Shown here: positions 52,735-64,000 of the stretch, one piece after another
How positions within the stretch are numbered: the first letter of the stretch is position 1
Layout of the letters: each line of letters opens with the position of its first letter
Assembly (NCBI RefSeq): GCF_001889605.1
Contig: NZ_CP018171.1
Coordinates: 3,618,501-3,682,500, forward strand
DNA length: 64,000 nucleotides
Origin: Aquibium oceanicum
Lineage (GTDB): Bacteria; Pseudomonadota; Alphaproteobacteria; Rhizobiales; Rhizobiaceae
Direction of reading: 5' to 3'
Program-made: the position numbers and the translations under genes
Notes under the pieces: model-generated
Database searches by the model: none
Told to the model about the DNA's origin: nothing
What the model saw: the letters and a program-made list of their open reading frames with translations, nothing else

Positions 52735-53532
52735 TCAGGTGATCCAGTCGTCGAGCCGCGCAGCGCGCACGTCGTGCAGCAGCCGCACGAAACCGGCGGC
52801 CTGATGTTCGGCCGTAGCCCTGCCCTTTTCGGCGGTCGCGATGGAGGCGTCGCCGGCGACGCCCGCCGGGTTGATGTCGCTGGCGATCCAGGCGAAGGCG
52901 TGCGTGCCCTGCGGCTTCAGGAGCGCGAAGGTTTCGTCGGCCCGTGTGGTGGCGGAGGAAAAATCCTGTGCCCTTTTCATGTCGACCAGGTCCGGCCGGA
53001 AGTGGAGCATGAGCGACGTCTCGACATCGCCGCCGTGGATGCCGAGCCGCTCCTCCGCCTCCGTGTACATGCCCTCGGGCCGACCGAAGCGCTGCCAGCT
53101 CGTCTTCACCGCCAGCATCCTGGCACGCACCCGGAGTTCGCGTGCGACGATGCCCATGATCTCTTCGTTGCCGCCATGCGAATTGACAAAGACTATCTTG
53201 CGCACGCCGGCGCGGGCCACCGACAGCCCGAGTTCAGTCCAGGCCTCGATCAGGAGCGGCGCCGGCAGGGTCAGCGTGCCCGGCGCGTGCAGGTGCTCGT
53301 TCGACTTGCCCACCGCCTGCACCGGCAGGAAACGGGCATCCAGATCCTCCGGCAGCAGCGGGAAGACGGTCTCCAGCATGCCCTGCATGATGGTCGTGTC
53401 GGTCGAGACGGGCAGGTGCGGCCCGTGCTGCTCGATGGCGGCGACCGGCAGGACGGCGATCGTCGATTCCGGATCGATCGCCGCGTAGTCCGTCGTCCGG
53501 TAATCGCCCCACCAGACCTTTCGTGCCGTCAT
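52735..53532 (-). CDS. Creatininase-family amidohydrolase
   Basis: This 265-residue metal-dependent amidase of the creatininase/ArfB/MftE superfamily has the metal ligands and surroundings AAIEQHGPHLPVSTDTTI, VFVNSHGGNEEI and GIHGGDVETSLML. Substrates in the family include creatinine, formamidopyrimidines and cyclic amides. I use the ATG at 53532. It is divergent from the sigma-54-driven N-heterocycle operon and upstream of the DUF2126 gene on the same strand, so it could belong functionally to either side. Confidence 0.9.
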   Translation of the reverse strand: MTARKVWWGDYRTTDYAAIDPESTIAVLPVAAIEQHGPHLPVSTDTTIMQGMLETVFPLLPEDLDARFLPVQAVGKSNEHLHAPGTLTLPAPLLIEAWTELGLSVARAGVRKIVFVNSHGGNEEIMGIVARELRVRARMLAVKTSWQRFGRPEGMYTEAEERLGIHGGDVETSLMLHFRPDLVDMKRAQDFSSATTRADETFALLKPQGTHAFAWIASDINPAGVAGDASIATAEKGRATAEHQAAGFVRLLHDVRAARLDDWIT

Positions 53533-53616
53533 CGATGCGTTCCTTTTCCGACACTGCGCGGAGCGGTGTCCCGCTGCCACTATCCCCGGATGACGCCACG
53601 CATCAAGCGGGCGGGT

Positions 53617-53672
53617 GCACGAAACCGATGCGCCATGGACTCGCGGTGAAAAAATGGGCACGCTGCATGTGC
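53617..53672 (+). promoter_or_regulatory. Two NtrC-like enhancer sites
   Basis: GCAC-N7-GTGC, the core of the NtrC consensus, occurs exactly at 53658-53672. A one-mismatch copy (GCAC-N7-ATGC) occurs at 53617-53631, 41 bp further upstream, about four helical turns. Both are upstream of the sigma-54 promoter at 53743-53757, at a distance normal for NtrC enhancers. Part of the upstream site overlaps sequence before the divergent creatininase gene. Confidence 0.5.
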
Positions 53673-53742
53673 GATCGGCAGCAGCCCGGCAGGCCGCCCG
53701 GTCGCCGGTCCGCGCGGCGGGCGCCCGCGCCGGTCCGGGCTC

Positions 53743-53757
53743 TGGCATGCGTCTTGC
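53743..53757 (+). promoter_or_regulatory. Sigma-54 (RpoN) promoter of the N-heterocycle operon
   Basis: TGGCATGCGTCTTGC fits the -24/-12 consensus TGGCACG-N4-TTGC with one mismatch. The GG and GC doublets are exactly 10 nt apart. The predicted start near 53769 gives a 56-nt leader to the binding-protein ATG at 53825. Confidence 0.7.
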
Positions 53758-53824
53758 GTCATGAAAATCCGGTTTCCGTCACCCGCCGCGCGATGGCGGG
53801 TTCGAAGAATAAAGGGGTCGTGTC

Positions 53825-54829
53825 ATGCATAGAAGGTTCCGTTCCGCCGTCGCCGCCATCGCCGTCCTGGCGCTCTCACCCGCGGTCGCGCATGCCGCAG
53901 AAAAGGTCGTCTTCGCCACCAACTGGCTCGCCCAGGCCGAGCATGGCGGCTATTACCAGGCCGTGGCCGACGGCACCTATGCCGAATGCGGGCTGGACGT
54001 AGAGATCATGCAGGGCGGGCCGCAGGTCTCCGGCCGGCCTCTGCTGCTCGCCGGCAAGATCGACTTCTACATGGGCGGCAACATGCTGCAGGCCTTCTCG
54101 GCCGTCGAGCAGGACATTCCGCTCAGGGTCGTCGCCGCGACCTTCCAGAAGGAGCCGCAGGTCCTGATGAGCCATCCGGGCCAGGGGCTCGACACCTGGG
54201 AGAGCCTGAAGGAGGCCGACCAGTACATCCTCGGCGACGAGGGCTTCCAGAGCTACTTCCAGTGGATGATCGCGGAGTTCGGCTTCGACGCGGCCAAGCG
54301 GGTGCCCTACACCTTCAACCCCGCGCCTTTCATCGCCAACCCGAAATCCGTGCAGCAGGGCTACGTGACCTCCGAGCCCTTCGCCATCGAGCGCGAGGGC
54401 GGCTTCGAGCCGAACCAGTTCCTGCTCGCCGATTTCGGCTTCACCACCTATGCGACCACCATCGAGACCATGCAGAAGACGATCGACGAGCGGCCCGAGG
54501 CCGTGCAGTGCTTCGTCGATGGCTCGGCCAAGGGCTGGTACAATTATCTCTACAACGACAACGCCGCCGCCAACGAGCTCATCAAGGCGGACAATCCGGA
54601 CATGACCGACGAGCAGATCGCCTTCTCCATCGACCAGATGAAGAAGTTCGGCATCGTCGATTCCGGCGAGGCGGAGGAAAAGGGCATCGGCGCCATGACC
54701 GACGAAAAGATCGCCGACTTCTACGCCAAGATGGTCAACGCCAAGGTCGTCGCCGACGGGCTCGACATCAAGAAGTCCTACACGCTCGACTTCGTCAACA
54801 AGGGCGTCGGGATGGACCTGAAGAAGTAG
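53825..54829 (+). CDS. ABC transporter substrate-binding protein, NMT1/THI5-like
   Basis: This 334-residue periplasmic protein has a Sec signal (RRFRSAVAAIAVLALSPAVAHA). The NMT1/THI5 pattern is FATNWLAQAEHGGYYQAVADGTY, then MQGGPQVSGRPLLLAGKIDFYMGG. It is related to, but clearly distinct from, the binding protein at 13360-14325. As the first gene of a seven-gene operon with a cytosine-deaminase-like enzyme, it probably binds a pyrimidine-like or other N-heterocycle. The ribosome site is AAAGGGGTC. It is controlled by the sigma-54 promoter upstream. Confidence 0.92.
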   Translation: MHRRFRSAVAAIAVLALSPAVAHAAEKVVFATNWLAQAEHGGYYQAVADGTYAECGLDVEIMQGGPQVSGRPLLLAGKIDFYMGGNMLQAFSAVEQDIPLRVVAATFQKEPQVLMSHPGQGLDTWESLKEADQYILGDEGFQSYFQWMIAEFGFDAAKRVPYTFNPAPFIANPKSVQQGYVTSEPFAIEREGGFEPNQFLLADFGFTTYATTIETMQKTIDERPEAVQCFVDGSAKGWYNYLYNDNAAANELIKADNPDMTDEQIAFSIDQMKKFGIVDSGEAEEKGIGAMTDEKIADFYAKMVNAKVVADGLDIKKSYTLDFVNKGVGMDLKK

Positions 54830-54872
54830 TGGCTTCGGCCAGCCTGCGCATCGACGACCCGAAGGACCGGCC

Positions 54873-55715
54873 GTGCCCGAGGTGATCGCCCGGATAGAAG
54901 AAGAGCGACCGTTGCCGGCGGAAGCACCCGACGCCCCGCTGCTTCGCCTGCGCGGCGTCGGCAAGTCCTTCTCGAACGGGGTCACGGCGCTGCGCGGCGT
55001 CGACCTCGCGATCCGCGAGGGGGATTTCGTGAGCCTGCTCGGGCCGTCCGGCTGCGGCAAGTCGACGGCGCTGCGGATCGTCGCTGGCCTCTCCTCGCCT
55101 ACCACCGGCCGGCTCGAATGGCAGCGCGAGGGCATCGGCCCCAACGACGTCGGCTTCGTCTTCCAGGAGCCGACGCTGATGCCCTGGGCGAGCGTCTTCG
55201 ACAATGTCTGGCTGCCGCTGCGATTGCGCGGCGTCTCGCGCCGCGAGGCGGCACCGGCGATCCGCGAGCTTCTGGAGCGCGTGCACCTGTCGGGCTTCGA
55301 GGAGGCCGTGCCCCGCGAACTCTCCGGCGGCATGAAGATGCGCGTCTCGATCGCCCGCGGACTGGTGACGAAGCCGCGCGTGCTCCTCATGGACGAGCCC
55401 TTCGCCGCGCTCGACGAGATCACCCGCTTCAAGCTCAACGACGACCTCCTGGACCTGTGGCGCGACCAGCGCTTCACCGTCGTCTTCGTCACCCACAGCG
55501 TCTTCGAGAGCGTGTTCCTGTCGAACCGCATCGTCGTCATGGCAGCCAGGCCCGGCCGGGTGCACGACGAACTGGAGGTCGGCGCGCCCTACCCCCGCGA
55601 CGAGCGCTTCCGCACCTCGCCGGAATACGCAGCCTTATGCCGGGAAGCCTCCGAGGCGCTTCTGTCCGCGATCAACGCCACCCACGAATCCGGAGCCGCG
55701 CATGGCGGCCGTTGA
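54873..55715 (+). CDS. ABC transporter ATP-binding protein
   Basis: This 280-residue SsuB/TauB-type ATPase has Walker A GPSGCGKST, Q-loop FVFQEPTLMPWAS, signature LSGGMKMRVSIARGL, Walker B VLLMDEPFAALDE and the H-loop VTHS. It starts at a GTG at 54873 behind GAAGGA. The last 14 bp overlap the permease gene, so the two are translationally coupled. Confidence 0.93.
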   Translation: MPEVIARIEEERPLPAEAPDAPLLRLRGVGKSFSNGVTALRGVDLAIREGDFVSLLGPSGCGKSTALRIVAGLSSPTTGRLEWQREGIGPNDVGFVFQEPTLMPWASVFDNVWLPLRLRGVSRREAAPAIRELLERVHLSGFEEAVPRELSGGMKMRVSIARGLVTKPRVLLMDEPFAALDEITRFKLNDDLLDLWRDQRFTVVFVTHSVFESVFLSNRIVVMAARPGRVHDELEVGAPYPRDERFRTSPEYAALCREASEALLSAINATHESGAAHGGR

Positions 55716-56559
55716 GGAGAGCCGTCCGGCCACGATGCTCGACGCGGAAGAGGCGCGCCGCGCCCGCACCGAGCGGCTGGAGCGCATCGGCAAATGGGTC
55801 CTGCCGCTGGCGATCATGCTCGCGGCCATCCTCGCCTGGGACCGCATCTGCGTCTGGAACGAGATCCCGCACTACATCCTGCCGCGACCGGGACTTGTGC
55901 TCCAGTCGCTGATCGACGACCGCGCGCTGTTGTTCTCCTCGCTGCTCGTCACGCTGCGCATCACCTTCCTCGGCCTGGCGCTCGCCGTCTTCGGCGGTGT
56001 CGGCCTCGCCGTGCTCTTCACGCAGTCGAAATGGGTGGAGATGTCCTTCTTCCCCTTCGCGGTGGTGCTGCAGGTGACGCCGATCGTCGCGATCTTCCCG
56101 CTGATCAACATCTACGTCGACAACCAGACCGCCAAGCTGCTGCTCTGCGCCTGGATAGTCGCCTTCTTCCCGATCCTGTCCAACACCACGCTGGGGCTGA
56201 ACTCCGCCGACCGCAATTTGCGCGACCTCTTCCGGCTCAACGGCGCCAGCCGCTGGCAGGAACTGTGGCTGCTCAGGCTCCCGTCCGCCATGCCCTACTT
56301 CCTCGGCGGCCTGAAGATCGCGGGCGGCCTGGCGCTCATCGGCGCGGTGGTGGCCGAGTTCGTCGCCGGTGCGGCAGGCCAGTCCTCGGGGCTCGCCTCG
56401 CGCATCATCGAGGCCGGCTACCGCCTGAACGCGCCGCGGCTTTTCGCGGCGTTGATCCTGATCTCGGCCACGGGCATCGTCATCTTCCTCGTCCTCTCGT
56501 GGATCTCCCACCTGATCCTGCGGCGCTGGCACGAGAGCGCGCTGAAGCAGGAGCGTTGA
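55702..56559 (+). CDS. ABC transporter permease
   Basis: This 285-residue inner-membrane permease has six TM helices of the BPD_transp_1 type. It carries TM1 at WVLPLAIMLAAILAWDRI and the EAA loop LFRLNGASRWQELWLLRLPSAMPYFLGGLK. It is the only permease of this operon and so probably forms a homodimer. The gene overlaps the ATPase by 14 bp and the amidohydrolase by one base (TGATG). Confidence 0.93.
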   Translation: MAAVEESRPATMLDAEEARRARTERLERIGKWVLPLAIMLAAILAWDRICVWNEIPHYILPRPGLVLQSLIDDRALLFSSLLVTLRITFLGLALAVFGGVGLAVLFTQSKWVEMSFFPFAVVLQVTPIVAIFPLINIYVDNQTAKLLLCAWIVAFFPILSNTTLGLNSADRNLRDLFRLNGASRWQELWLLRLPSAMPYFLGGLKIAGGLALIGAVVAEFVAGAAGQSSGLASRIIEAGYRLNAPRLFAALILISATGIVIFLVLSWISHLILRRWHESALKQER

Positions 56560-57872
56560 TGACATCGCAACTCGACCTCCCCTCCTCCGGTTGGTACGTG
56601 CTGGCCAATGCCCGCGTGCATTTCTCATTGACCACCGCCGACATCGGCGCGACCGACGAGGATGGCTTCGCTCTTGTCGATATCGCCATCGCCGACGGGA
56701 AGATCACCGGCATCGCGCCGCGACGGGACAAGCCGGTCCCGCCGCGCGCGGTCGATCTCGCCGGCCGCATCGTGTTCCCCTGCTTCGTCGACTGCCACAC
56801 CCATCTGGACAAGGGCCACATCTGGCCGCGCAGGCGCAATCCCGACGGCTCCTTCATGGGCGCGCTGGAGGCGGTCGGCGCCGACCGGGCGGCGAACTGG
56901 TCGGCGGCGGACGTCGAGGCGCGCATGGAGTTCGCCCTGAAATGCGCATTCGCGCACGGAACCAAGGCGATACGCACCCATCTTGATTCGATTTCTCCGC
57001 AGGAGACGATCTCCTGGCCGGTGTTCGAGTCGATGCGCGAGCGCTGGGCGGGCCGTATCGACCTCCAGGCCGTCTGCCTGCTCGGCATCGACGGGGTGCG
57101 CGAGACGGACTGGTTCGCGGATCTCGCCGGCCGCGTCGCCGCCGCGCGCGGCATGCTCGGCGCCGTGACCTACATGGTGCCCGAGCTAGAGCCGCTGCTC
57201 GACCGGGTCTTCGAGACCGCCATCGAACGCGGCCTAGACCTCGATTTCCACGCCGACGAGACCGACGACGTCTCGGCCATCTCCCTGAAGAAGATCGCCG
57301 AAAAGGCGCTGGAACATCGTTTCGAAGGAAAAATCCTCGTCGGCCACTGCTGCTCGCTGGCGCGCCAGCCGGATGCGGACGTGCTCGACACGCTGGACAA
57401 GGTCGCCCGGGCGGGCGTGGCCGTCGTGTCGCTGCCTATGTGCAACATGTATCTCCAGGACCGCCGCTTCGACGGCACGACGCCGCGCTGGCGCGGGGTG
57501 ACGCTGCTGCATGAGATGAAGGCCCGCGGCATCCCCGTCGCCGTCGCCTCGGACAACACGCGCGATCCGTTCTATGCCTATGGCGACCTCGACATGCTGG
57601 AGGTCTACCGCATGGCGACCCGCACCCTGCATTTCGATCATCCGGTCGCCGACTGGCCCAGGACGGTGGCGGCGACGCCGGCCGACATCATGCGGTTGCA
57701 GGATGCGGGAAGGCTCGCCGTGGGCGGCGCTGCCGATCTCGTCGTCTTCCGGGGGCGGAGCTGGACCGAACTGCTGTCGCGGCCCGAAAGTGGCCGCATC
57801 GTCGTGCGAGATGGCCGCGCGATCGAGGCCGCCGTGCCGGACTATTCCGAACTCGACACCGTCGTAGGTTAG
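56559..57872 (+). CDS. Cytosine-deaminase-like amidohydrolase
   Basis: This 437-residue TIM-barrel amidohydrolase is of the cytosine/creatinine/isocytosine deaminase group. Metal and catalytic residues are His80 and His82 (DCHTHLDKGH), His231 and Glu234 (DFHADETDD), His263 (VGHCCS) and Asp332 (ASDNTRDPF). E. coli CodA has two consecutive aspartates at the last site; here the second is Asn, so the substrate may not be cytosine itself. It starts at the ATG at 56559 overlapping the permease stop, which indicates coupling. It would release ammonia from the imported heterocycle. Confidence 0.88.
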   Translation: MTSQLDLPSSGWYVLANARVHFSLTTADIGATDEDGFALVDIAIADGKITGIAPRRDKPVPPRAVDLAGRIVFPCFVDCHTHLDKGHIWPRRRNPDGSFMGALEAVGADRAANWSAADVEARMEFALKCAFAHGTKAIRTHLDSISPQETISWPVFESMRERWAGRIDLQAVCLLGIDGVRETDWFADLAGRVAAARGMLGAVTYMVPELEPLLDRVFETAIERGLDLDFHADETDDVSAISLKKIAEKALEHRFEGKILVGHCCSLARQPDADVLDTLDKVARAGVAVVSLPMCNMYLQDRRFDGTTPRWRGVTLLHEMKARGIPVAVASDNTRDPFYAYGDLDMLEVYRMATRTLHFDHPVADWPRTVAATPADIMRLQDAGRLAVGGAADLVVFRGRSWTELLSRPESGRIVVRDGRAIEAAVPDYSELDTVVG

Positions 57873-57878
57873 GAACTG

Positions 57879-59282
57879 ATGGATATCGAAGCGCTCAAAA
57901 CCGAAATCGATGGCATCCGGATCGAGGAGAATCCGGCCGTCGTGAAGCAGAAGAGTCGGGATTTCTTCTGGTATTCGCCGGTCTTGAAGGAGCAACTCGA
58001 TCACATTACGGCCGACATCGTGGTCTCGCCAAACGACGAGGCCGAGGTGATCCGGGTGCTTTCGGCATGCTGCCGGCTCGGCATCCCGGTTACGCCGCGC
58101 GGCACCGGTACGGGCAACTACGGCCAGGCCATGCCGCTCTCGGGCGGCGTAATCCTGAACCTCGCTGAGATGAGCGCCGTCAGGGAGATCGCGCCGGGCC
58201 GGGTGGTCTGCGAGCCGGGGGCGGTGCTGGCCCAGATCGACCGCGCCACGCGCGCTCATTCGGGCCAGGAGCTTCGTCTGTCGCCCTCGACCTACCAGAC
58301 CGCCTCCATCGGCGGCTTCGTGGCCGGGGGGTCGGGCGGCATCGGCTCCATCCGCTGGGGTGGCCTGCGCGACCTCGGCAACATCCTGCGGCTGCGCGTG
58401 GTGACCATGGAGGAAGAGCCGCGCGTGCTCGAACTCACCGGCGAGGAACTGCACAAGGTCACCCATGCCTACGGCACCAACGGCATCATCACCGAAGTGG
58501 AGATGCCGCTGACCGCCGCCTACGAGTGGGTGGACGTGATCGTCGGCTTCGAGAGCTTCATGGACGCCGCCCGCTACGGCAACGCGCTGGCGCGTCAGGA
58601 CGGCATTCTCACCAAGCTGATCTCGCCCATCGCCGCCCCTGCCCCCTTCGACTATTTCAAGCGGCACCAGAAATTCCTGCGGGAGGGGCAGAGCGTCTGC
58701 CTGGTCATGGTCGCGCCGCAGTCGCTCGATGCCTTCCGCGCCTTCACCGAGCGCGCCGGCGGCGAAGTCGTCTTCGATGCCGCCGATGCGGGCCCGGAGG
58801 AGACCAAGGGCCTGCCGCCCGTGACGGAGCTCTCGTGGAACCACACGACGCTGAGGGCACTGCGGGTCGATTCGGCAATCACCTATCTCCAGGTGCTCTA
58901 CCCATTCCCCAATCAGATCGACCTCGTGGCGAAGATCCACGCCATGATCCCCGACGAGATGATCGGGCATCTGGAGTTCGTGCGCTTCGACGGCGACATC
59001 ACCTGCTTCGGCCTGCCGATGATCCGCTATTCGACGGCGGAGAGGCTGGAGGAGATCATCCGGCTGCACGAGGAGAACGGCTGCCCTATCTTCAATCCGC
59101 ACCGCTACACGCTGGAGGAAGGCGGCATGAAGCAGACCGACGAGGTCCAGCTCGCCTTCAAGCGCGAGGCCGACCCAAAAGGCCTGCTCAACCCAGGCAA
59201 GATGATAGCCTGGGAGAACCCCGACTACGACTACCGCTCCGACAAGCCGTTCCTCTTTCCCCGTCTGCAGAGGGCGTCCTGA
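57879..59282 (+). CDS. FAD-binding oxidase, GlcD/VAO-like
   Basis: This 467-residue flavoprotein of the vanillyl-alcohol-oxidase fold has its FAD-binding PP-loop in TPRGTGTGNYGQAMPLSGGV, the SPSTYQTASIGGFVAGGSGG loop, and a C-terminal substrate and cap domain ending KGLLNPGKMIAWENP. No covalent-flavin His is obvious. It follows the amidohydrolase by 6 bp. It would oxidise a hydroxy-acid or ring intermediate of the same pathway; I cannot name the substrate. Confidence 0.9.
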   Translation: MDIEALKTEIDGIRIEENPAVVKQKSRDFFWYSPVLKEQLDHITADIVVSPNDEAEVIRVLSACCRLGIPVTPRGTGTGNYGQAMPLSGGVILNLAEMSAVREIAPGRVVCEPGAVLAQIDRATRAHSGQELRLSPSTYQTASIGGFVAGGSGGIGSIRWGGLRDLGNILRLRVVTMEEEPRVLELTGEELHKVTHAYGTNGIITEVEMPLTAAYEWVDVIVGFESFMDAARYGNALARQDGILTKLISPIAAPAPFDYFKRHQKFLREGQSVCLVMVAPQSLDAFRAFTERAGGEVVFDAADAGPEETKGLPPVTELSWNHTTLRALRVDSAITYLQVLYPFPNQIDLVAKIHAMIPDEMIGHLEFVRFDGDITCFGLPMIRYSTAERLEEIIRLHEENGCPIFNPHRYTLEEGGMKQTDEVQLAFKREADPKGLLNPGKMIAWENPDYDYRSDKPFLFPRLQRAS

Positions 59283-59311
59283 GCCTTGATGGTCGCTCGT
59301 CCCTGATCGCC

Positions 59312-59893
59312 ATGAGAATCCTCCTCCTCCACGCCCACCCGGTGGAAACGAGCTTCAACGCCGCACTTCACCGGCTGATCGTCGAGCGGCTGGTGGCGAA
59401 GGGGCACGAGGTGGACGACTGCGACCTCTATGCCGAGGATTTCGACCCGCGCCTGTCGCGGGAGGAACGGCTCGACTATCACGACCTCGACCGCAACGTT
59501 TCGCGCGTGAGGCCGCACGTGGAGCGGTTGCGGTCCGCCAATGCGCTGGTCATGTGCTACCCGGTCTGGAACTTCGGCTATCCCGCGATCCTGAAAGGCT
59601 ATTTCGACCGCGTCTTCCTGCCCGGCGTCTCCTTCGCGATGGTGGACGGCAAGGCGCAGCCCTCGCTGCACAACATTTCCAAAGTTGCGGCCGTCACCAC
59701 CTATGGCGGCGACCGTCTGCGCGCCTGGCTGATGGGCGACCCGCCGCGCAAGCTCATCCGGCGCCACCTGCGCGTCACCGTGAGGCCCGGCGCGCCGGTC
59801 CAGTACCTCGCCCACTACGACATGAACCGTTCGACCGACGCCAGCCGCAAGCGCTTCATGGACAAGGTCGCAAGGGCGATGGACGCCTTCTGA
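59312..59893 (+). CDS. NAD(P)H:quinone oxidoreductase, flavodoxin fold (copy 1)
   Basis: This 193-residue protein of the WrbA/MdaB/NQO-like flavodoxin_2 family has the N-terminal strand-loop MRILLLHAHPVETSFNAALH, which binds the FMN or FAD phosphate. The segment MCYPVWNFGYPAILKGYFDRVF is the family flavin-binding strand. It starts at the ATG at 59312, 29 bp after the oxidase gene. It is a paralogue of the next gene, which it overlaps by one base. It may reduce flavin or a quinoid intermediate for the pathway. Confidence 0.9.
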   Translation: MRILLLHAHPVETSFNAALHRLIVERLVAKGHEVDDCDLYAEDFDPRLSREERLDYHDLDRNVSRVRPHVERLRSANALVMCYPVWNFGYPAILKGYFDRVFLPGVSFAMVDGKAQPSLHNISKVAAVTTYGGDRLRAWLMGDPPRKLIRRHLRVTVRPGAPVQYLAHYDMNRSTDASRKRFMDKVARAMDAF

Positions 59894-60480
59894 TGCGGGT
59901 GCTCGTCGTCCACTGCCATCCGGTTCCGGAGAGCTTCTGCGCGGCTTTGCGCGACACCGCTCTTCGGGCATTGAAGCGCGCGGGCCACGAGACGCGGCTG
60001 ATCGATCTCTACGCGGAAAAGTTCGATCCCGTCATGGGCTGCGAGGAGCGCCGCACCTACAACGACCGCGCCCCGACCGATCCCACACTCGGCCCCCACA
60101 TCGAGGCGCTCGGCTGGGCGGAAGCGATCGTCTTCGTCTATCCGACGTGGTGGTACGGGCTGCCGGCCATGCTGAAGGGCTGGCTCGACCGGGTCTGGGC
60201 GCTCGACGTCGTCTTCAAACTCGACAAGAAAGGCGGCAAGATCCGGCCGCTCCTCACCCATGTCCGCAAGATCGCGGTGGTCACGACCTGCGGCGCGCCG
60301 CTCTGGTGGTCGCATGTCGTCGGCCATCCCGGCCGGCGGACCATTCTGCGCGGCATCCGGGCGCTGTGCGGCTGGCGCTGCAAGACCCTGTTCCTTGCGC
60401 ACTACCGCATGGACCAGTCGACGCCCAGCTCCCGCGCGGCATACCTGAAGAAGGTCGAGGTCAAGCTCTCCGCATTTTAG
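59893..60480 (+). CDS. NAD(P)H:quinone oxidoreductase, flavodoxin fold (copy 2)
   Basis: This 195-residue paralogue of the preceding protein begins MRVLVVHCHPVPESFCAALR, with the flavin segment VYPTWWYGLPAMLKGWLDRVW, closer to the MdaB/Kef-ancillary type. The ATG overlaps the upstream TGA (TGATG), so the two are translated together and may form a heterodimer. It is the last gene of the sigma-54 operon. Confidence 0.9.
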   Translation: MRVLVVHCHPVPESFCAALRDTALRALKRAGHETRLIDLYAEKFDPVMGCEERRTYNDRAPTDPTLGPHIEALGWAEAIVFVYPTWWYGLPAMLKGWLDRVWALDVVFKLDKKGGKIRPLLTHVRKIAVVTTCGAPLWWSHVVGHPGRRTILRGIRALCGWRCKTLFLAHYRMDQSTPSSRAAYLKKVEVKLSAF

Positions 60481-60657: not shown

Positions 60658-63600
60658 ATGCGCGCATTCCGTGTCATCGCCGTCATCCTTGCCGCCCTGC
60701 TCGGCACGGCCACGGGCACCCTGGCCCAGGAGGCCCGCCAGATCGTCACCACTCAGGACGGCGACTATTTCGGCTTCGATCTCCGGACCGAGCAGAACAT
60801 GTCGCTCGACCAGTGCAAGTCGGCCTGCCTCGGCGACCCTTCCTGCCGCGCCTTCACCCACAACACCCGCGCGCAATGGTGCTTCCTCAAATCCGATTAC
60901 AACACGCTGAACACCTTCCCCGGCGCGGTCGCCGGCAAGGTGGTCGACCTGAGCGGCGAGCCGGACATCGGCGCTCCGCCGGAGCTGTCGTTCGTCGCGT
61001 CCTACGTTCTCGACGACGCCCGCTCCTGGCGCCAGGACCTCCTTTCCAAGGCCTCGGCCGGAGGTGCCGGCCTGGTGTCGCTGGTCGATGCCGCGCAGAA
61101 CGCGATGGACAACAACGACCCGCGCGCCGCGATGCTGAACTACACCAATGCGCTGACGATCCTGCCGGACGACACCGCTCTGTGGACCGGGCTCGCCGAG
61201 GCGGCGAACGCCGTGGTGCCCGGCGGCGGCGAGAGCAGCTACTATTTCCAGCGCGCCGGCACCAGCGCCGCGATCAACGGCTACCGTCTCTCGCGCACCG
61301 CCACGGAGCGCGCCAACGCGCTGAACGCGCTGGCCGAGGCGCTGGAAAAGCGCAGCATGCACCGGCCGGCGATCACCGCATTGGAACGCAGCATCGCCCT
61401 GGTGACCTCGGTAGAGACCTTGCAACGCTACGCCGACCTGAAGAGCCAGTGGGGCTTCCGCGTCATCGAGCACACGGTCGATTCCGATAATGCCAGCCCG
61501 CGCGTCTGCGTCCAGTTCTCCGAGGAACTGGCCAAGAGCGGCATCGACTACGCGCAGTTCGTCAGCGTCGACAACGCCCCCACCACCGCCGTCGAAAAGG
61601 GCGATCGCGAGCTCTGCGTCGAGGGACTGGAGCATGGCGGTCGCTACCGCATCGTCATCCGCCAGGGCCTTCCCGCCGCCATCGGCGAGGTAATCGGCGA
61701 GCCCGTCGCACTGGACATCTACATCCGGGACCGCTCGCCCTCGCTGCGCTTCACCGGCGATAATTTCGTGCTGCCCAACAGCGCCCGCCGCGGCATCCCC
61801 GTGGTCTCGGTGAACACCGACAAGGCCGACATCGCGCTCTACCGGATCGGCGACCGCTCGCTGTCGCGCCTGCTCACGCAGTCGCAGTTCCTGCGGCAAC
61901 TCGACGCCTACGAGATCGGCAGCATCGCCGACGACCTCGGCGAGCCCGTCTTCAAGGGCTCGCTCGACATCAAGTCCGAACTCAACGAGGAGGTGGTCAC
62001 CGCCTTCCCGGTCGACGAGGCGATCCCCGAGCGCAAGCCCGGCGTCTACGTGATGACCGCCACGCCCGAGGGCGACCGGCGCGAAAGCTGGGACTCCCGT
62101 GCCACGCAATGGTTCGTTATCTCCGACATCGGCCTCGTCACCTTTGCCGGCAATGACGGCCTGTCGGTCTTCGCCCGCTCGCTGGACACAGCGAAGCCGA
62201 AAGCCGGCCTCGAGCTGAAGCTCGTCGCCCGCAACAACGAGCTGCTCGGTACCGCGACCACCGACGTCGACGGACGCGCCGTGTTCGACGCCGGCCTGAT
62301 GCGCGGCGACAGCGGTCTCGCGCCCGCCGTGATCATGGCGAGCGGCGACGGCGACGATTTCGTCTTCCTCGACATGACGCGCTCCGGCTTCGACCTGTCC
62401 GACCGCGGCGTCGAGGGCCGCGCCTCCCCTGGTCCGCTGGACGTCTACGCCTGGACCGAGCGCGGCATCTACCGTGCCGGCGAGACGGTCCACGCCGCCG
62501 CGCTGAACCGCGACACGGAGGCCGAGGCCGTCGACGACCTGCCGCTGACCTTCATCTTCCAGCGCCCCGACGGCGTGGAGGATCGCCGCGTCGTCTCCTC
62601 CGGCGCCGAGCTCGGCGGACACGCGGTCGATCTCGACCTGTCGGCCAACGCCATGCGCGGCACCTGGATGGTCCGCATCCATGCCGACCCGAAAGCGGCG
62701 GCAATCGCGGAAAAGACCTTCCTGGTCGAGGACTTCGTTCCCGACCGGATCGAGTTCGACCTGACCAGCGACAAGGACGAGGTGGCCGTCGGCGAGCAGG
62801 CGACGCTCACCGTCGACGGGCGCTATCTATACGGCGCGCCGGCCGAGGGCCTGTCGCTCGAAGGCCAGCTCACCGTCTCTCGCACCCGCGAATGGGAAGA
62901 GTTCCCGGGCTACTATTTCGGGCTGGAGGACGAGGAGGACGTCGAGGACACGCGCACGACGCTCCAGGAGCTGCCGCAGACCGGCGCGGACGGCAAGGCA
63001 GAGTTCGAGGTCGCCGTCGACGCGGTGCCCTCCACGACCCAGTTCCTGATGGCCGAAGCCTCGGTGCGGCTGGTGGAAGCCGGCGGACGCGCGGTCGAGC
63101 GCTCCATCGACATCGAGATCACGCCCGAAAGCGACATGCTCGGCCTGAAGCCCGAATTCGAGGGCGGATCGGTGCCCGAAGGCGGCACGGCCAACTTCCG
63201 CGTCATCGCCGTCGATCCGGCCGGCGACCGCGTCGAGATGAAGGACGTCCGCTGGTCGCTGATCAAGCTGGAGCGGCACTACCAGTGGTATCGCAACGGC
63301 AACAGCTGGGACTACGAGCCGATCACCTCGACCACCATGGTCGAGGACGGCACGGTGGACGCTTCCGCGACCGCCGAACCGATGATCTCCGTGTCCGTCG
63401 ACTGGGGCCGCTACCGCATGGAGATCGAGACCGGAGATCCGAACGGACCGGCGACCAGCGTCGAGTTCGAGGCGGGCTGGTACGTCGAGGCGAGCTCCAC
63501 GGAGACGCCGGACGGGCTGGAGGTCGCGCTCGACAAGGATTCCTATTCCGTCGGCGAGACCGCCAAGCTGAAGATATCGCCGCGCTTCGCCGGCGAGGTG

Positions 63601-64000
63601 CTGGTGACGACCGGCGCTGAGAGCCTGCTATCGACCATCACCGCCACCGTGCCAGAGGGCGGCACGACCATCGACATCCCGGTGACCGAGGAGCTCGGTG
63701 CCGGCGCCTATGTCATGGCGACCGTGTTCCGCCCCGGCGAGGCGCAGGAATCGCGCCTGCCCATGCGCGCCATCGGGCTGAAATGGCTCAAGGTCGATCC
63801 CGGCGAGCGCAAGCTCTCGGTCTCGATCGAGGCGCCGGAAAAGACCGAGCCTCGGCAGCCGCTGGTGCTGCCCGTCTCCGTCAGCGGCCTGCAGCCGGGC
63901 GAGGAAGCCTATGTCACCATCGCCGCGGTCGACGTCGGCATCCTCAACCTCACCCGCTACGAGGCGCCGGACCCGACGAAGTGGTACTTTGGCCAGCGCC
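60658..64000 (+). CDS. Alpha-2-macroglobulin family protein with N-terminal PAN domain (3' end beyond window)
   Basis: The frame is open from the ATG at 60658 (GGAGG ribosome site 8 nt upstream) to the end of the window, giving 1114 residues. A Sec signal peptide (about residues 1-23, ending TGTLAQ) lacks a lipobox, unlike E. coli YfhM. Residues 30-80 form a PAN/apple-like domain with Cys53, Cys57, Cys63 and Cys75 (QCKSACLGDPSC). The rest shows the MG domains of bacterial alpha-2-macroglobulins: SDRGVEGRASPGPLDVYAWTERGIYRAGETV, then EAPDPTKWYFGQR at the edge. The thioester CLEQ-type site, if present, lies beyond the window. It is thought to trap proteases in the periplasm. Confidence 0.92.
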   Translation, partial: MRAFRVIAVILAALLGTATGTLAQEARQIVTTQDGDYFGFDLRTEQNMSLDQCKSACLGDPSCRAFTHNTRAQWCFLKSDYNTLNTFPGAVAGKVVDLSGEPDIGAPPELSFVASYVLDDARSWRQDLLSKASAGGAGLVSLVDAAQNAMDNNDPRAAMLNYTNALTILPDDTALWTGLAEAANAVVPGGGESSYYFQRAGTSAAINGYRLSRTATERANALNALAEALEKRSMHRPAITALERSIALVTSVETLQRYADLKSQWGFRVIEHTVDSDNASPRVCVQFSEELAKSGIDYAQFVSVDNAPTTAVEKGDRELCVEGLEHGGRYRIVIRQGLPAAIGEVIGEPVALDIYIRDRSPSLRFTGDNFVLPNSARRGIPVVSVNTDKADIALYRIGDRSLSRLLTQSQFLRQLDAYEIGSIADDLGEPVFKGSLDIKSELNEEVVTAFPVDEAIPERKPGVYVMTATPEGDRRESWDSRATQWFVISDIGLVTFAGNDGLSVFARSLDTAKPKAGLELKLVARNNELLGTATTDVDGRAVFDAGLMRGDSGLAPAVIMASGDGDDFVFLDMTRSGFDLSDRGVEGRASPGPLDVYAWTERGIYRAGETVHAAALNRDTEAEAVDDLPLTFIFQRPDGVEDRRVVSSGAELGGHAVDLDLSANAMRGTWMVRIHADPKAAAIAEKTFLVEDFVPDRIEFDLTSDKDEVAVGEQATLTVDGRYLYGAPAEGLSLEGQLTVSRTREWEEFPGYYFGLEDEEDVEDTRTTLQELPQTGADGKAEFEVAVDAVPSTTQFLMAEASVRLVEAGGRAVERSIDIEITPESDMLGLKPEFEGGSVPEGGTANFRVIAVDPAGDRVEMKDVRWSLIKLERHYQWYRNGNSWDYEPITSTTMVEDGTVDASATAEPMISVSVDWGRYRMEIETGDPNGPATSVEFEAGWYVEASSTETPDGLEVALDKDSYSVGETAKLKISPRFAGEVLVTTGAESLLSTITATVPEGGTTIDIPVTEELGAGAYVMATVFRPGEAQESRLPMRAIGLKWLKVDPGERKLSVSIEAPEKTEPRQPLVLPVSVSGLQPGEEAYVTIAAVDVGILNLTRYEAPDPTKWYFGQR

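Follow-up and report, generated by a model that had tools for sequence, protein, structure and literature searches.

According to PMC9513972, the way in which soil bacteria take folate apart is only partly understood. The same paper establishes that bacterial pterin deaminases of the amidohydrolase superfamily, namely those of Variovorax F1 and Arad3529, act on folate, and it places an endoribonuclease gene downstream of the Variovorax-type deaminase gene. A second link between bacterial enzymes and folate is PDB entry 6v42, released on 2020-12-02 under the title 'Crystal structure of the flavin oxygenase with cofactor bound involved in folate catabolism'. Here, we describe a locus of Aquibium oceanicum that encodes a close relative of this oxygenase. 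The window, by which we mean the whole stretch of 64,000 nucleotides that was analyzed (NZ_CP018171.1, positions 3,618,501 to 3,682,500), is part of a 5.3-Mb genome and contains seven plus-strand genes at 53825-60480. They encode an ATP-binding cassette (ABC) importer with its binding protein, a cytosine-deaminase-like amidohydrolase, a flavin adenine dinucleotide (FAD) protein and two flavodoxin-fold reductases. We predict that this operon, probably under nitrogen regulation, most likely serves to import folate, or a pteridine derived from it, and to break it down. A preliminary description, made from the letters of the window alone, had presented the genes as a candidate new operon acting on an imported N-heterocycle that was not yet defined.

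Over its full length, the FAD protein shares 74% identity with 6v42, with a phmmer E value of 2.9e-246 against 6v42/6v43 and residues 1-467 of the query aligned to residues 3-467 of the chain. In a structural search with a model of the FAD protein (predicted local distance difference test score, pLDDT, 73.1), 6v42 ranked first, with a Z score of 34.8 and a root-mean-square deviation of 4.8 over 431 aligned residues; the next entry had a Z score of 22.9. The 6v42 sequence is itself nearest to six Hoeflea loci (85-88%), and the four of these that have flanking sequence (L045-L048) contain the same complete operon. Because of this shared gene content, the operon in the window belongs, in all likelihood, to the operon family that yielded the 6v42 enzyme. 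The key FAD enzyme has already been tied to folate catabolism by a PDB depositor, and this match led us to reject an undefined new heterocycle route as the lead reading, together with the claim of novelty. A paper on 6v42, 6v43 or the operon was not found in the literature searched, and the accessible part of a review of flavin N5 chemistry (PMC7662398) does not mention folate.

The FAD protein had been described previously as a GlcD-like oxidase. This identity is ruled out by its score on the GlcD model TIGR00387, 76.7 bits against a cut-off of 567.9. In Pfam it matches FAD_binding_4 only, which also sets it apart from RutA-type oxygenases. An electron-fed oxygenase is more likely than an oxidase, because the close relatives keep a flavodoxin-fold reductase gene beside the FAD gene. 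Two distant loci that lack this reductase have a different electron transfer gene nearby: a PDR/VanB-type reductase gene on a Pantoea plasmid and a [2Fe-2S] ferredoxin gene on a plasmid labeled Roseateles. At other distant loci, for instance that of Pseudosulfitobacter, no electron donor was recognized.

To describe the conservation of the operon, we used two sets of loci and counted partner genes within 8 kb of the FAD gene. The first set came from the best 80 of 589 loci found with the FAD protein, which are the closest ones and mostly from Mesorhizobium; 62 of these extend 6 kb or more to either side of the FAD gene, and 18 with shorter flanks were dropped. The second, more diverse set retained 20 of 27 loci and dropped seven. 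Five of the 20 (L140-L143 and L146) had been found with the deaminase, leaving the other 15 as the valid sample for deaminase co-occurrence. The deaminase is near the FAD gene in all 62 close relatives, the full ABC importer in 61, and at least one flavodoxin-fold reductase in all 62 (two in 51, one in 11). The order of the genes for binding protein, ATPase, permease, deaminase and FAD protein is likewise held in 61 of the 62. At the exceptional locus, L014, the importer genes and RidA were not seen, and the left flank is short. The seven-gene cluster is therefore a real conserved unit, well above chance. All seven genes lie where the preliminary description had placed them, with the Pfam matches listed in Table 1, and the tight coupling it reported is borne out by their spacings (43, -14, -1, 6, 29 and -1 bp), with a maximum gap of 43 bp and three overlaps. 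Its outline of an imported N-heterocycle that is deaminated and then oxidized by flavoproteins is supported as well, and the separation of flavoproteins from amidohydrolase that it had named as a refutation was found in none of the 62 loci. The FAD protein is present in all five genomes of the genus, in 13 of 41 genomes in a search of relatives (A. oceanicum included) and in 14 of 289 genomes sampled from the class. A deaminase-like amidohydrolase is encoded nearby at 12 of the 15 distant loci that the FAD protein retrieved. In several distant operons (L086-L088, L109 and L111), a divergent relative that also has an Asp-Asn pair replaces the deaminase.

Two further genes belong to this family of operons. 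A creatininase-family gene is near the FAD gene in 57 of the 62 close relatives, and a RidA gene in 60 (the exceptions are L003 and L014). In 14 of 15 relatives examined singly, the creatininase-family gene and the binding-protein gene flank RidA. The gene list in the preliminary description was thus correct for its seven members and missed both the divergent creatininase-family gene of the window and the RidA of its relatives. The best NCBIfam match of the creatininase-family protein is MftE, at 114.8 bits and under the cut-off of 172. No RidA gene is present at the locus in the window (53532-53825) or in any of three genus-mates with a complete locus; another genus of the family (G914) has RidA at the locus. 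Because a 61% identical RidA copy is encoded elsewhere in the genome (G000:C1:4306173-4306544), RidA seems to be supplied from outside the operon. Further folate genes were sought beside this copy, and no catabolic neighbor was recognized from the opening residues of each reading frame.

A TGGCA-N6-TTGC element with the spacing of a sigma-54 promoter (GG-N10-GC) precedes the gene for the binding protein. With the pattern fixed from the site in the window prior to counting, the same core was found in 65 of the 77 regions that precede the binding-protein gene (the window included) and on the opposite strand in none. The core lies 65-92 bp upstream in 59 of the 65 regions and further out in the other six. 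Mononucleotide shuffles would be expected to give approximately 0.14 regions with the core, and the background frequency of the pattern over all loci is 0.0225 per 400 bp. Since 38 of the 77 regions fall in one cluster of similar DNA, the core was also counted by cluster, and it is present in 25 of 34. Twelve regions lack it, two examples being on plasmids, L084 from Rhizobium and L085 from Paroceanicella. The recurrence of the site lends support to the nitrogen control suggested in the preliminary description, and the operon is probably under sigma-54/nitrogen control; sigma-54 dependence is a pointer to such control, and no proof of it.

Table 1. Positions of the operon genes and adjoining features in the window
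Feature	Position	Strand	Evidence or remark
Creatininase-family amidohydrolase	52735..53532	-	PF02633, 235 bits; divergent; outside the coordinates of the preliminary description
Sigma-54 (-24/-12) promoter-like site TGGCATGCGTCTTGC	53743..53757	+	82 bp 5' of the binding-protein start
NMT1/THI5-type substrate-binding protein	53825..54829	+	PF09084, 76.3 bits
ABC transporter ATPase	54873..55715	+	ABC_tran, PF00005
ABC transporter permease	55702..56559	+	BPD_transp_1, PF00528
Cytosine-deaminase-like amidohydrolase, 437 aa, predicted pteridine deaminase	56559..57872	+	Amidohydro_3; NF005759/PRK07583
Predicted flavin oxygenase (VAO/PCMH-type), 467 residues	57879..59282	+	FAD_binding_4; similarity to PDB 6v42/6v43 at orthologue level
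Flavodoxin-fold NAD(P)H oxidoreductase 1, putative electron donor	59312..59893	+	Flavodoxin_2, PF02525, 102 bits
Flavodoxin-fold NAD(P)H oxidoreductase 2, putative electron donor	59893..60480	+	Flavodoxin_2, PF02525, 117.5 bits

The amidohydrolase scores 649.3 bits on the NCBIfam model NF005759 (PRK07583, 'cytosine deaminase'; cut-off 403) and far under the cut-offs of other cytosine deaminase models, with 116.6 bits against 483 on the CodA-type model NF006685. Conservation of its residues was counted from an alignment of 29 orthologues rather than by a motif search. His80, His82, His231, Glu234, His263 and Asp332 are invariant in all 29, as are Asn333, Arg335 and Phe338, and the metal and catalytic residues are intact. 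The pair D332-N333 aligns with the Asp-Asp of Escherichia coli cytosine deaminase, so that the CodA-type pair is absent. The preliminary description had pointed to this altered pair, and the difference is real. It is ruled out as a mark of new chemistry because no aligned family member departs from it and because the solved triazine enzyme AtzC (4cqb) shares it, with Asp-Asn-x-Arg-Asp at the equivalent place. Judged from the alignment, the Asp-Asn pair is a family trait of this amidohydrolase. The equivalent place in 6nbo, called an N-isopropylammelide enzyme, is occupied by Asp-Gly. The nearest folds to the structure model of the amidohydrolase (pLDDT 85.9) are those of CodA, AtzC and 5-methylcytosine deaminase, which it resembles to much the same degree (Z scores 34.7-36.4). 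It is unlikely that the operon encodes the housekeeping cytosine deaminase, because another gene in the genome is of the PRK07572 type (also 'cytosine deaminase'; 765 bits, cut-off 438), with Asp-Cys at the position of the pair.

If the folate or pteridine prediction is correct, degradation would begin with import of a folate or pterin compound by the binding protein and ABC transporter, after which the amidohydrolase would hydrolytically release the pterin 2-amino group as ammonia and leave a lumazine-type ring. The flavodoxin-fold enzymes may supply the FAD enzyme with electrons taken from NAD(P)H, and the FAD enzyme, with oxygen, would hydroxylate or cleave the deaminated ring. RidA and the creatininase-family enzyme could then hydrolyze reactive imine or enamine and amide products, releasing more nitrogen. 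A more ambitious proposal, which we put forward tentatively, is that these genes form an entry module that destroys the pteridine ring of folate for its nitrogen. It would combine import, 2-deamination, a VAO-fold oxygenase with flavodoxin-fold reductases, RidA, a creatininase-like hydrolase and sigma-54 control, and would thus follow a strategy like that of Rut with enzymes unrelated to it. Rhizobia and marine Alphaproteobacteria would share the module, and Pantoea and Roseateles-labeled plasmids would have divergent versions. No account of the ring-cleavage steps of this module was found in the open literature searched. The gene set covers steps that lie outside the title of 6v42, through its deaminase, RidA and creatininase-family partners, and it hints at the use of folate as a nitrogen source. 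Public records call these genes 'cytosine deaminase' and 'FAD-binding oxidoreductase', annotations that would be corrected if the prediction holds. The operon remains of interest for its complete set of genes, for how they are regulated and for how widely they are distributed.

Several observations weigh against folate or a pteridine as the substrate. The assignment rests mainly on the title of one PDB entry, 6v42, and the nearest solved relatives of the amidohydrolase act on cytosines and a triazine. Carboxypeptidase G and p-aminobenzoyl-glutamate hydrolase were not seen among the neighboring genes scanned, in which no dedicated search for them was made. Three of the 15 distant FAD loci (L103, L104 and L113) have no recognizable deaminase, and a flavodoxin-fold reductase is nearby in only 10 of the 20 diverse loci, several of which have no recognized electron donor. 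Because of these distant loci without a deaminase or a reductase, the FAD family is broader than one pathway, and it is for the close relatives that the oxygenase reading is best supported.

These observations leave room for three other substrates, all of which we give lower weight than folate or a pteridine. The deaminase could act on 5-methylcytosine, isocytosine or a modified cytosine, with the FAD enzyme opening the pyrimidine ring as an analogue of Rut. The name of the NCBIfam family fits such a pathway, and E. coli cytosine deaminase (Z score 36.4) and Klebsiella 5-methylcytosine deaminase (Z score 35.0) are among the closest folds. One distant FAD locus (L108:12963-19051) has a Rut-like downstream set, in which an amidase of the AtzE family (696 bits, cut-off 461) is joined by a RutB/BiuH-like hydrolase that is under both cut-offs. 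We nevertheless consider a monocyclic pyrimidine unlikely, given that the 6v42 title names folate, that the CodA-type score is so low and that a separate cytosine-deaminase-labeled gene is present; moreover, Phe338 replaces the Trp of the D-P-W motif, just as Asn333 replaces the second Asp, in all 29 aligned sequences.

Still less probable is another amino-substituted bicyclic or triazine ring, such as an isoguanine-, 8-oxoguanine- or ammelide-like compound, for which the folate label of 6v42 would be incidental or too narrow. Such a ring would fit the Asp-Asn-x-Arg-Asp stretch in common with AtzC, and a PaoABC-type molybdenum hydroxylase adjoins the operon on Agrobacterium and Rhizobium plasmids. 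However, a large subunit of such a hydroxylase is found within 8 kb in only one of the 62 close and one of the 20 diverse loci, and the title of 6v42 would be left unexplained. Salvage or degradation of the thiamine pyrimidine, a 4-aminopyrimidine of the hydroxymethylpyrimidine (HMP) type, is suggested by the Pfam NMT1/THI5 membership of the binding protein and is highly improbable: NMT1-type binding proteins have many substrates, this one has no NCBIfam match and a sole, distant PDB match at E values up to 0.001 (4nmy, E 6.5e-11), HMP salvage to our knowledge includes no oxygenase, RidA or creatininase, and no thiamine gene was noticed adjoining the operon, though none was searched for.

The wider set of loci includes several variants of this gene content. 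Three tandem copies of the FAD oxygenase adjoin the deaminase at L106, and two at L105, both in distant Alphaproteobacteria. On the Agrobacterium and Rhizobium plasmids mentioned above (L083 and L084), the PaoABC-type genes and a LysR regulator gene flank the operon. Plasmid pAM01 of Aminobacter sp. MSH1 encodes a 61% identical deaminase (L089:9938-11302) among RidA, amidase, isochorismatase and ABC genes, and no FAD oxygenase is annotated within 10 kb of it. At L144 and L090, a 45% identical deaminase occurs with an ABC importer, a 2-oxoglutarate/Fe oxygenase and a LysR regulator; a FAD oxygenase was not seen in the stretch examined, and this gene set is perhaps a sister pathway. In the window, the second flavodoxin-fold oxidoreductase has as its top PDB match 3lcm (E 1.7e-20), named a putative oxidoreductase or NADPH quinone oxidoreductase. 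Downstream of the operon, a long open frame (60658-63999; at least 1114 aa) runs past the end of the window and is a candidate alpha-2-macroglobulin-like protein on the basis of its sequence.

We also looked for the Variovorax pterin deaminase itself. It was not identified with one published primer in 250 genomes of one family, presumed to belong to the Burkholderiales, or through the PRK05985 family in 18 of those genomes. Among the top PRK05985-family matches, the first primer was not found in L147 and neither primer in L148, where examined; the L147 protein is close to 6nbo.

Among described systems, the 6v42/6v43 oxygenase and the operon of its nearest Hoeflea relatives showed no difference in kind from their counterparts in the window; the genus of A. 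oceanicum lacks RidA at the locus. The pterin deaminases of Variovorax F1 and Arad3529, compared here by their description in PMC9513972, are also amidohydrolase-type deaminases, for which the same type of ring is proposed. The Variovorax enzyme has 399 aa, compared to 437 aa in the window, and the endoribonuclease gene that accompanies it is possibly of the RidA type, as in this operon family. CodA and AtzC share their fold and catalytic residues with the amidohydrolase, at a structure-aligned identity of 20-23%. The Rut pathway for uracil, which is under nitrogen control, is alike in its logic, as it also uses a flavin oxygenase, an amidohydrolase and a RidA-type protein; for the operon described here, RidA is near the locus in 60 of the 62 relatives and absent from the window. 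It differs in its oxygenase, which is RutA in that pathway and a FAD_binding_4 enzyme here, and in the ABC importer and deaminase that stand in front of this step in the operon described here.

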